NCBI GenBank assembly: GCA_021802705.1
Contig: JAJZRL010000006.1
Coordinates: 1 to 53,851, forward strand
Direction of reading: 5' to 3'
Length of the DNA: 53,851 nucleotides
DNA from: a bacterium
GTDB taxonomy: Bacteria; Patescibacteriota; Minisyncoccia; Phycocordibacterales; Phycocordibacteraceae
In this document: piece after piece, positions 1 through 53,851 of the stretch
Layout of the letters: every line of letters starts with the position of its first letter
Position numbering within the stretch: the first letter of the stretch is position 1
Position numbers and translations under genes: made by a program
Notes under the pieces: generated by a model
Database searches by the model: none
The model's input: the letters and a program-made list of their open reading frames with translations, nothing else
What the model was told of the DNA's origin: nothing

Positions 1-127
1 CTCACTCCTAGCCATCCTCATCACCGCAGCCGTCTCCTCCGGAGCGAACGCCCTTGCCACCCAGTCCTTCACCGAACCCTCCTCTCCTCCTCCGAACAAT
101 AACGCCGACGCTCCGCTTGACGTGAGC
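1..127 (+). repeat. 127-bp exact repeat, left copy
   Basis: Bases 1-127 are identical to 53630-53756. The repeat codes for the signal-peptide and proline/asparagine-rich linker of two paralogous secreted proteins. Immediately after it the copies diverge (gcgaact against tacaacg) but remain homologous at the protein level. Because the flanks differ, this is a true repeat and not the overlap of a circular contig. The length of 127 is also a common maximum k-mer size in de Bruijn assemblers, so the left contig end may be a graph branch point at this repeat. Confidence 0.95.
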
Positions 128-544
128 GCGAACTCCCAATCGAAGTCAGCCGGCCTCCTCCTCAACACCGGAGGAGCCACAAACGGCCTCCTCGTCCAGT
201 ACGGCAACGTGGGCATCGGCACCCTGAACCCCGTCACCACCCTGAACGTTATCGGCAAGGTGGGAGCTGCCGCATACTGCGACCAGAACGGTCAGAACTG
301 CACCTCCACGCTCGGCGGCGGCCCCGTTGCCAACTACAACGACCTGCCGAGCGGGGCGGTGGCGGGGTTTTGTGAAAAACAAAGTAACGCATGTGGTGTA
401 AGTGTTCTTCCGGCATACTGTGGATCTCAAACATTGTGTACATGTCAAACTGGATTCTATAATTTGTATATGGCCTATTGGCAGACGTCGGACATACATG
501 GGCACCTCGTTACACACGAGACTTATACTTGTATCAAAAACTAG
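2..544 (+). CDS. Secreted modular surface protein, 5'-truncated
   Basis: The reading frame is open from the window edge; the start codon and about 11 codons are missing. By comparison with the copy at 53598, the visible part begins inside a signal peptide (hydrophobic LLAILITAAVSSGANA, cleavage probably after ANA or ALA). It is followed by a Pro/Asn linker (about residues 25-38) and a glycine-rich repeat-like segment with the signature GNVGIGTLNP, resembling beta-helical tail-fibre or adhesin stalks. The C-terminal 60 residues are Cys-rich (six Cys, plus a YCDQNGQNC pair upstream), suggesting disulfides outside the cell. By hand count GC falls from about 60-73% in bases 61-360 to 33-47% in 361-540, so the C-terminal module probably has a different origin from the stalk. 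The function is not known; surface attachment is an inference. Confidence 0.75.
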   Translation, partial: SLLAILITAAVSSGANALATQSFTEPSSPPPNNNADAPLDVSANSQSKSAGLLLNTGGATNGLLVQYGNVGIGTLNPVTTLNVIGKVGAAAYCDQNGQNCTSTLGGGPVANYNDLPSGAVAGFCEKQSNACGVSVLPAYCGSQTLCTCQTGFYNLYMAYWQTSDIHGHLVTHETYTCIKN

Positions 545-584: not shown

Positions 585-612
585 TTGCGCTTCGAAAACG
601 CTCGCGTACAAT
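585..612 (+). promoter_or_regulatory. Putative greA promoter
   Basis: A TTGCGC -35 (585-590), 16-bp spacer and TACAAT -10 (607-612) precede greA. The predicted start of transcription near 619 lies downstream of the ATG at 611, which argues for the internal Met codons at 635/638 as the true start. Confidence 0.5.
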
Positions 613-637
613 GGATGCATTAGCACACAGATGTATG

Positions 638-1111
638 ATGCCTGACACACACGACTCCTTCGTCTCGCAGGAGAAGTTCGATGAGATGGTGAAAGAGCTT
701 GAGCATCTCAAGACGGTTCGCCGCACCGAAATCGCGGAAAATCTCGAATACGCCCGTTCGCTCGGCGACCTCTCAGAGAATGCCGAATACCAGGAGGCCC
801 GCGATCTGCAGGCCGCGACCGAAGAGCGCATCAAGAAGCTCGAGGAATTCGTCAAGCACACGAAGATCGTTACCGATGGAAAGAAGAAGAACGAGGTCGG
901 TTTCGGCTCGAAGGTGTCGATCAGGAAAGAGGGAAGCGCCGAAACGCATGAGTATACGCTTGTCGGGAGCGAGGAAGTCGACATGCGCGTGAAGAAGCTC
1001 TCGCACCTCTCTCCGCTCGGCGCCGCGCTCATGGGGAAGAAGAAGGGCGATGTCTTCACGTTCGAGACGCCGGCCGGCAAACAGACCTACCTGATCGAGA
1101 AAGTCAGCTGA
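638..1111 (+). CDS. greA: Transcription elongation factor GreA
   Basis: GreA binds in the RNA polymerase secondary channel and stimulates cleavage of backtracked RNA. The 157-residue product matches the usual 158. It has the N-terminal antiparallel coiled coil with the conserved tip motif DLSENAEYQEA, whose acidic residues position the catalytic metal, and a C-terminal FKBP-like domain with the typical SPLGAALMGKKKGD block. An in-frame ATG at 611 overlaps the -10 box, so the ATG pair at 635/638 was preferred; no Shine-Dalgarno site is visible. It sits 19 bp upstream of lysS in the same direction. Confidence 0.95.
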   Translation: MPDTHDSFVSQEKFDEMVKELEHLKTVRRTEIAENLEYARSLGDLSENAEYQEARDLQAATEERIKKLEEFVKHTKIVTDGKKKNEVGFGSKVSIRKEGSAETHEYTLVGSEEVDMRVKKLSHLSPLGAALMGKKKGDVFTFETPAGKQTYLIEKVS

Positions 1112-51624: not shown

Positions 51625-53601
51625 ATGAGAAAAAACGGCCAAGGGTTCGACAGGCGCGATATGGACACGAACGTGCGGCCGCAAGACGATTTCTATCATC
51701 ATGTGAATGGCGGATGGTTGAAGAAGAATCCGGTTCCGCCGCACGAATCGCGCTGGGGTTCGTTCCTCATGCTCCGATACGAAACCGAAAAGAAGCTCCA
51801 CGCTATCGTCTCAAGGCTGCAGGACGAGAAGAATCTCAAAGCCGGCAGCGCCGAGAGGATGATCCGTGATTTCTATCGTTCAGGCATGGACACGAAGCGC
51901 CGGAACGCGCTTGGCGCGACTCCCCTTGCGCCCTGGCTTGAGCGTATCGCGAAGATAACCGACGTCCGTTCGCTCGTATCGGTGTTCGCGCATCTCGAGA
52001 CGATCGGCGGCGGCGGCCCGTGGGGAATCGCGGTCGATCAGGACATGAAAGACAGCAGGAAATACGTCGCATACCTGCATCAAAGCGGGCTTGGCATGCC
52101 CGATCGCGATTACTATCTCAAGGATGACCGTGAATCAGTTCGCGTGCGTACCGCATATGTGAAGCACCTCGAAGCGATATTCGCGCTCATGGGAAAGACG
52201 AAAGCCGAGGCGAAGGACGGCGCGAAGACGGTGATGCGTATCGAGACCGCCATCGCGAAGATATCCATGACGAAGGAAGACCTGCGTGATGTCGATAAGA
52301 CATACCATCCGATACGCCGCGCCGCGCTCGCCCGCCTGACGCCCGCGATAGATTGGGATTCTTTTTTCCGGATCGTCGGAGCTCGGGATGTGAACCGAGT
52401 CATTCTCATGCAGCCGGAATTCTTCAAAGCGCTTGATGCGCTTCTCGTGAAAGAGCCTCTTGAGGACTGGAAGACATTCCTGTCCTGGCATCTTGTCGGC
52501 GGTGCTGCAAGCTATCTCACTGCAAGATTCGAAAAGCAAAACTTCGCCTTCTATGGCACGACGCTTTCCGGTGTGACGAAAATGAAGCCGGCGTGGCGGC
52601 GCATCCTTGCCTCGGTGAACGGCAGCCTCGGCGAACCGCTCGGCAGGCTCTACGTGCAGGAGTATTTCAGCCCGGAAGCGAAAAGAAAGGCGGCACGGAT
52701 GGTCGAAGACCTCTTTGAAGCCTACGAAGCGCGCATCAGGAATCTCGACTGGATGAGCGCCGCGACGAAACGGAAAGCGGCGAAAAAGCTGCGTCAGATT
52801 GATCGCAAGCTCGGGTATCCCGATAAATGGAGGAAGTATCGCGGACTCATGATATCCCCTCATGATTATTTCGGTAACGCGGTTCGTACGGCGCGATTCG
52901 AACATGCGCGCATGATGCGCCGTCTCAAGAAGCCGGTGGATCGAAGCGAGTGGTTCATGAACCCGCAGACCGTGAACGCATATTACAGTTTCGGCCTGAA
53001 CGACATCGTCTTCCCTGCCGCGATACTGCAGCCGCCTTTCTTTTCGGTCGATGGCGATGATGCGCTCAACTATGGCGCGATGGGTTCGGTTATCGGCCAC
53101 GAGATCACCCATGGCTTCGACGATCAGGGATCGAAATTCGATGGTACGGGAAACAGGAGAACGTGGTGGACGAAAGAAGACCGGAAACGTTTCGAGAAGA
53201 AAGCAGAGGCGCTCGTCAGGCAGTTTAACGCGTACACCGTCGCGGACGGGCTCGCCGTGAACGGACGACTGACGCTCGGCGAGAATATCGCCGACCTCGG
53301 AGGGGCTTCGATCGCGTATGACGCGTTCCGGCTCCGTCTCGCGAAAACGAAACAGAAAGCAGGCAACGACGCCACCGGACTCACGCCCGAACAACGCTTC
53401 TTCTTCGGTTTTGCCCTCTTTGAACGCGAAAACCGCCGGCCGGAAGCGGAAAAGACCCAAGTCCTCACCGATCCGCACTCGCCCGGTACCTTCCGCATCA
53501 ACGGCCCCGCCTCGAATCTTCAGGAGTTCTATCAAGTCTTCGATGTTCGGAAAGGCGACAAGCTGTACCGAGAGCCGGCGAAGCGAGCGAAGGTTTGGTG
53601 A
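51625..53601 (+). CDS. pepO: M13-family metalloendopeptidase (PepO/neprilysin-like)
   Basis: A 658-residue zinc peptidase. The zinc motif is H492-E-I-T-H496 (VIGHEITHGFDDQG), the third ligand is E553 of GENIADLGG with D557, and the substrate-binding NAYYSFGLND and the start DFYHHVNGGWL are typical of M13. No signal peptide or membrane anchor is visible, so it is probably cytoplasmic, like bacterial PepO, cleaving short peptides. Its TGA overlaps the GTG start of the next secreted-protein gene (GTGA), suggesting coupled translation. Confidence 0.95.
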   Translation: MRKNGQGFDRRDMDTNVRPQDDFYHHVNGGWLKKNPVPPHESRWGSFLMLRYETEKKLHAIVSRLQDEKNLKAGSAERMIRDFYRSGMDTKRRNALGATPLAPWLERIAKITDVRSLVSVFAHLETIGGGGPWGIAVDQDMKDSRKYVAYLHQSGLGMPDRDYYLKDDRESVRVRTAYVKHLEAIFALMGKTKAEAKDGAKTVMRIETAIAKISMTKEDLRDVDKTYHPIRRAALARLTPAIDWDSFFRIVGARDVNRVILMQPEFFKALDALLVKEPLEDWKTFLSWHLVGGAASYLTARFEKQNFAFYGTTLSGVTKMKPAWRRILASVNGSLGEPLGRLYVQEYFSPEAKRKAARMVEDLFEAYEARIRNLDWMSAATKRKAAKKLRQIDRKLGYPDKWRKYRGLMISPHDYFGNAVRTARFEHARMMRRLKKPVDRSEWFMNPQTVNAYYSFGLNDIVFPAAILQPPFFSVDGDDALNYGAMGSVIGHEITHGFDDQGSKFDGTGNRRTWWTKEDRKRFEKKAEALVRQFNAYTVADGLAVNGRLTLGENIADLGGASIAYDAFRLRLAKTKQKAGNDATGLTPEQRFFFGFALFERENRRPEAEKTQVLTDPHSPGTFRINGPASNLQEFYQVFDVRKGDKLYREPAKRAKVW

Positions 53602-53851
53602 AACCTCTCTCTCGTTCGCCCCTTCTCCTCTCACTCCTAGCCATCCTCATCACCGCAGCCGTCTCCTCCGGAGCGAACGCCCTTGCCACCCAGTCCTTCA
53701 CCGAACCCTCCTCTCCTCCTCCGAACAATAACGCCGACGCTCCGCTTGACGTGAGCTACAACGGCCAGTCTAAAACCGGAGGTCTCGAGCTCAACACCGG
53801 CCTCGCCGCAGTCGGCCTCATCGTCCACGGCAACGTGGGCATCGGCACCCT
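53598..53851 (+). CDS. Secreted modular surface protein, 3'-truncated paralogue
   Basis: The start is GTG at 53598, sharing 4 nt (GTGA) with the pepO stop. It encodes a signal peptide (basic KPLSRSP, hydrophobic LLLSLLAILITAAV, then ANALAT), the Pro/Asn linker, and a stalk with GNVGIGT before the window ends. It is a paralogue of the gene at 2-544; the first 42 codons shared are identical in DNA (53630-53756), after which they differ while keeping the same pattern (QSK.GGL.LNTG). The missing C-terminus probably differs, as in the other copy. The function is unknown; secretion and adhesion are inferred. Confidence 0.8.
   Translation, partial: MKPLSRSPLLLSLLAILITAAVSSGANALATQSFTEPSSPPPNNNADAPLDVSYNGQSKTGGLELNTGLAAVGLIVHGNVGIGT
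53630..53756 (+). repeat. 127-bp exact repeat, right copy
   Basis: Identical to bases 1-127 of the window. It spans the signal-peptide core and linker of the 3'-truncated secreted protein. Confidence 0.95.

Follow-up and report, generated by a model that had tools for sequence, protein, structure and literature searches.

The window, that is, the whole stretch of DNA that was analyzed, is contig C6, which measures 53,851 bp; the genome comprises six contigs with a total of 644,803 bp and is 98% complete. Both ends of the window fall within genes of one dispersed family that codes for small secreted proteins. The copies are numbered 1 to 4 here, and the relevant features, all on the forward strand, are as follows.

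1 to 99, forward strand: type A leader segment that opens the contig and is identical to 53630-53728; probably that of copy 3, placed here by the assembler, as the syntenic head on contig C2 has another leader
100 to 226, forward strand: stalk of the beta type (SANSQSKSAGLLLNTGGATNGLLVQYGNVGIGT) of copy 2, and the junction with contig C2 (exact 127-bp C2 end)
227 to 358, forward strand: linker NPVTTLNVIGKVGAAAYCDQNGQNCTSTLGGGPVANYNDLPSGA of copy 2, 91 to 96% identical among the four cassette copies when aligned
359 to 544, forward strand: hypervariable tip and stop codon of copy 2 (AGFC...C...C.C..GF...YTCIKN), with a GC content of 42% versus 66% in the linker
611 to 1111, forward strand: greA, the downstream neighbor of copy 2
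51625 to 53601, forward strand: gene of an M13-type peptidase (PepO), with a stop codon that overlaps the GTG of copy 4
53598 to 53851, forward strand: head of copy 4 with GTG start, (CT)4, signal peptide, leader A, and alpha stalk, running on into contig C5
53605 to 53612, forward strand: (CT)4, a short in-frame counterpart of the (CT)9 and (CT)8 tracts of copies 1 and 2, respectively

All contigs of the genome were retrieved and compared with each other. Bases 1 to 127 of the window are identical to bases 53630 to 53756, as the preliminary description of this DNA had claimed, and beyond these 127 bp the two ends still match at 88% over 198 to 225 bp, far above chance, with the motifs QSK..GL.LNTG and GNVGIGT present at both. 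Family DNA was also found at the right end of C1, the left ends of C2 and C3, and both ends of C5, plus an internal stretch of C4 (C4:52007-52212), and the right end of C3 carries the same upstream element as the other copies, in poor C-rich sequence. The final 127 bp of C6 are the opening 127 bp of C3 and also of C5, and the opening 127 bp of C2 equal C6:100-226. Contig ends that share exactly 127 bp indicate an assembler k of 127, the value suspected earlier. The accompanying suspicion that the family breaks the assembly and has more copies was borne out by the bin-wide comparison, with at least five copies in the 645-kb genome, four of which coincide with assembly breaks.

The broken halves were paired using the gene order of relatives. 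PBP2, upstream of the half on C2, lies directly 5' of greA, downstream of the left half on C6, in 24 of 29 relatives, mostly with no insert and usually with a spacing of ca. 60 bp. The exonuclease gene before the C1 half adjoins the genes after the C3 half in G088, G013, G015, and G079; PAP2, before the right half on C3, adjoins the gene after the right half on C5 in G025, G089, and G081; and PepO, before the right half on C6, is within ca. 1 kb of the gene after the left half on C5 in G025, G079, G115, G022, G087, and G026. Copy 1 is accordingly C1 right plus C3 left, copy 2 is C2 left plus C6 left, copy 3 is C3 right plus C5 right, and copy 4 is C6 right plus C5 left. Each of these four cassette copies is located between genes that are neighbors in relatives, and a fifth, more diverged copy resides on C4. 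The two remaining breaks fall inside the 23S rRNA gene (C4 right/C1 left) and in another repetitive protein (C2 right/C4 left), which allows the contigs to be arranged as a single circle.

Since gene order joins the gene at the left end of the window to the head on C2, its true leader is on C2; that leader and bases 1 to 99 of the window are 93.9% identical with a 3-bp gap. The first ca. 99 bases of the window are probably a graph edge of copy 3 that the assembler set before C6, which explains them best, though they may instead be a real population variant. In part, the perfect 127-bp match seen there is probably a graph or assembly artifact.

The proteins consist, in this order, of a Sec-type signal peptide, a proline-rich leader (TEPSSPPPNNNADAPLDVS), a stalk with GNVGIGT, the linker, and the tip. 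Copy 4 has the type A leader, as do copies 1 and 3 to the extent covered by the contig ends, and that of copy 2 is different. The alpha stalks of copies 1 and 4 are 100% identical over 119 bp, and the beta stalks of copy 2 and the C4 copy are 98.4% identical; the stalk of copy 3 is probably beta, and copy 4 carries one additional stalk unit. The identity between alpha and beta types is 77.9%, and the earlier description of a homologous but diverged stalk was thus correct. The tips have only A-G-[WF]-C, P..C, C..G[FW], and C-[IV]-K-N in common, with 27 to 45% amino acid identity to the first tip; they differ by indels and cysteine spacing and are AT-richer (GC3 of 0.38 to 0.44 versus 0.82 to 0.86 in the linker). 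Read from their sequences, the copies are mosaics of two leader types and two stalk types with one linker type and a divergent tip each. These leader and stalk combinations fit gene conversion or recombination among copies, and to that extent the process proposed in the preliminary description holds, although the exact identity at the left end, on which it had drawn, was probably borrowed by the assembler. Similarly, the constant export part that it had postulated is present, but the exchangeable tips are diverged versions of one cysteine-framed domain and not unrelated 3' modules.

No family copy tested gave a Pfam or NCBIfam match above the cut-off, and a PDB sequence search returned nothing usable (best match, an antibody chain, E = 0.0065). 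An AlphaFold prediction of window positions 2 to 541 alone had a pLDDT of 36.5, too low to be usable. In a search of database contigs, only distant relatives of the leader and stalk were detected, and no near strain with a different tract length. The motifs TEP..PP..N..APL and GNVGIGT of the leader and stalk are shared with secreted proteins of the Parcubacteria type; in the relatives examined, however, leader and stalk are joined to C-terminal domains other than the tips of this family.

Copies 1 and 2 begin with TATACT, ATG, and then AAAC followed by (CT)9 or (CT)8 and CGTTCGCC, after which comes the signal peptide. The stretch from the TAA of the upstream gene to the family gene is 95% alike in the two copies. 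In both, the distance from the first base of TATACT to the ATG is 14 nt (13 nt in the sister species G025, of the same genus). Across the genome, TAnnnT shows a peak at start positions 12 to 15 nt ahead of ATG (9% at 12 nt versus ca. 1%), so that a leaderless or short-leader message probably begins at this ATG. A count of the bases places the signal peptide in the frame of the ATG at 7, 10, or 13 CT units in copies 1 and 2 and at 11 or 14 in G025. The assembled alleles of these two copies, (CT)9 and (CT)8, respectively, are both out of frame, and upstream of the tract in these two copies there is no ATG, GTG, or TTG in the frame of the signal peptide. These two tracts are the sole dinucleotide runs of at least eight units in the 645 kb. 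A different kind of array, a perfect 120-bp stretch of 20 units of the hexamer CTCCGC, is located at C1:116326-116445 of the same genome (G000).

Copy 4 is without promoter and ATG and reads in frame through (CT)4 from the GTG that overlaps the PepO stop; followed through the shared 127-bp end into C5, it gives a complete ORF of 255 codons from the CGT at 53613. Counted from the same CGT point, the ORF that follows the tract in copy 2 has 185 codons. Neither the C4 copy nor one of the G025 copies (C21) contains a tract, and both are in frame. A long tract is proven in two of the four cassette copies, the head of copy 3 being a low-quality C-rich contig end and copy 4 having (CT)4. Three traits of a contingency locus are found here, namely, a short tandem repeat in the coding region whose unit is not a multiple of three, an intact ORF reachable at another repeat length, and a tract length that varies, being 4, 8, and 9 within the genome and 12 at the orthologous locus of G025. 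Downstream of the tract, the ORFs of the out-of-frame genes are intact, and the comparison of G025 with copy 2 gave a dN of 0.27 and a dS of 0.57 (dN/dS of ca. 0.5), which argues against simple pseudogenes. As both assembled alleles are off-frame, the case for expression rests on these ORFs and on dN/dS.

The G025 copy that follows PBP2 is arranged alike, with (CT)12 out of frame, and the other recognizable family copies of that genome likewise terminate contigs. Among the relatives examined, only G025 has this tip family with its CT tract. Across the genus, (CT)8 or longer was found at seven loci in 6 of 92 genomes, and a control with (GT)8 gave one match, at a contig end. Six of the seven loci (copies 1 and 2 and those of G025, G100, G064, and G003) lie between the start codon and the signal or transmembrane segment of a presumed surface protein, in frame in G003 and out of frame in the other five; the seventh, in G108, is in frame within a reverse transcriptase. 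The proteins of sister species at L103 (G100:C76), L099 (G064:C2), and L100 (G003:C2) are unrelated presumed surface proteins in which the tract before the signal or transmembrane segment reads SLSLS or RERERE.

At the level of the order, tracts of (CT)9 or more were present in 34 of 397 genomes. We applied a fixed criterion (ATG no more than 75 nt upstream, a hydrophobic stretch no more than 40 residues past the tract, and the tract near the N-terminus), and 9 of the 34 loci passed, compared with a rate for random positions of 1.6% within these loci and 1.3% within this genome (P of ca. 2e-9, for loci that are partly related and not fully independent). Twenty-three of 35 order loci read CG(AG)n, 16 of them then followed by TA (often TAAA), in unrelated genes and both orientations. 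No graded series of shorter CG(AG)nTAA tracts was found in the genus, nor any tract with its flank in the viral contigs scanned.

Some tracts of the order accompany reverse transcriptase genes. At L203, L206, L217, L224, L225, L228, and L229, (CT/AG)9-15 is situated where the genes of a reverse transcriptase and of a small four-helix, Avd-like protein meet head to head, often inside the N-terminus of the small protein, in or out of frame. At L104 (G108:C8), L215, L216, and L219, (AG)10-15 lies within the reverse transcriptase ORF just before PIGNLTSQ; the frame is kept in G108, which has an RVT_1 match, and apparently lost in the other three. The reverse transcriptase genes with an internal tract are possibly phase-variable.

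Slipped-strand phase variation is well studied in host-adapted pathogens. In Neisseria, several dispersed and separately promoted opa copies carry a CTCTT repeat in the region coding for the signal peptide, are turned on and off by frame, and have conserved and hypervariable segments reshuffled among copies; the product is an outer-membrane barrel. We consider it probable that the present family is a dispersed, recombining, slipped-strand phase-variable family of surface proteins working like opa without homology to it. Leader and stalk segments would be exchanged among copies by recombination or gene conversion while the tips diverge, and CT units would be gained or lost in replication, which would restore or break the frame of the signal peptide and so turn production of the protein on or off. 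Copies 1 and 2 would each be driven by their own promoter-like -10 near the ATG, and copy 4 would have lost both elements and adopted its GTG start. Cells of one population would then display differing mixtures of variant surface proteins, which may act in host contact or in avoiding phages, with the tips perhaps serving attachment to the host in an episymbiotic lifestyle. The likeness to opa is one of working only, in the multiple dispersed copies, the repeat in the leader region, and the mosaic exchange. The unit is CT and not CTCTT, the product appears to be a small stalk-and-tip protein and not a barrel, the bacterium, judged by its named relatives and its genome size, belongs to the Patescibacteria, and there is no sequence relation, so that these genes do not belong to the Opa family.

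A close molecular parallel is the type III methyltransferase gene of Mycoplasma mycoides, which, with (AG)12, terminates at TAA (PMC3498834). The resemblance lies in an AG/CT dinucleotide within a coding region whose wrong length leads to an early stop at TAA, as in several of the Patescibacteria tracts, and the difference in that the product is a DNA methyltransferase, while here the proteins are secreted and the tract precedes the signal peptide. The nearest precedent found in the candidate phyla radiation (CPR) is a hypervariable repeat gene of a gracilibacterium, coding for a surface protein, with repeats that break up the assembly and differ from cell to cell; these are 9-mer PTD repeats with synonymous variation in a single gene, with no frame switch (PMC6851277). 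Among open-licence PubMed Central papers, we found no report of phase variation in Patescibacteria or the CPR. What is new here, and absent from the preliminary description, is the candidate switch of copies 1 and 2, a CT repeat preceding the signal peptide that, by its position and unit, should turn these genes on and off. If so, very small, microbe-dependent genomes use the same bet-hedging on exported proteins, perhaps for tracking changing hosts or evading phages. More tentatively, and with the odds against it, Patescibacteria may possess an unrecognized phasome in which a single kind of tract, CG(AG)nTAA in either orientation, turns surface proteins as well as reverse transcriptase/Avd-like (diversity-generating) modules on and off; episymbionts would then vary both the surface proteins shown and whether the diversifying machinery is on.

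The same dispersed and recombining surface-protein family could have CT tracts that are no more than neutral microsatellites, located in genes that decay or use another start codon, with no functional switch. The off-frame state of both assembled alleles and the lack of a start codon in the signal-peptide frame 5' of the tract in copies 1 and 2 fit such a situation, which we nevertheless regard as unlikely, given that the downstream ORFs are intact and conserved, that the tract is retained with a different length at the orthologous place in another species, and that like tracts precede the secretion signals of unrelated proteins, some of them in frame. It is very improbable that a recombinase joins one expressed head to alternative tips in a site-specific cassette system resembling a shufflon or an integron. 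The last 127-mer of C6 does continue into two tails, on C3 and C5; however, each tail has its own flanking gene and, by conserved gene order, a different head, and no inverted repeats around cassettes were found within the window. The separate flanking genes of the four loci largely refute a reading of this branch as alternative tails of one gene.

Diversity-generating retroelements are common in the CPR, and the hypervariable tips might suggest a target varied through mutagenic retrohoming. This has hardly any probability, since the genome contains no RVT_1 reverse transcriptase, the tips vary in cysteine spacing and through indels, and a comparison of the whole genome with itself disclosed no template-like copy of a tip. 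An equally negligible chance is given to the repeat being purely an artifact of assembly or contamination: the first 99 bases of the window do look misplaced and the right end of C3 is poor sequence, but gene order backs four different loci, to which the internal fifth is added, and the same family ends contigs in the independent genome G025.

Families of this kind, among the most interesting genes of the CPR, fall where short-read assemblies break, and their leaders may be wrong. The protein at the break between C2 and C4 (G000 C2 right end and C4:1-2300; L015 and L014) is likewise repetitive and of a GNVGIGT/NTALG type. Runs of C or G, depending on the strand, occur in the upstream element of the family at the contig ends G000 C3:84008-84033 and G025:C7:1-77 (L171) and are possibly either sequencing errors in a C-rich stretch or homopolymer tracts.
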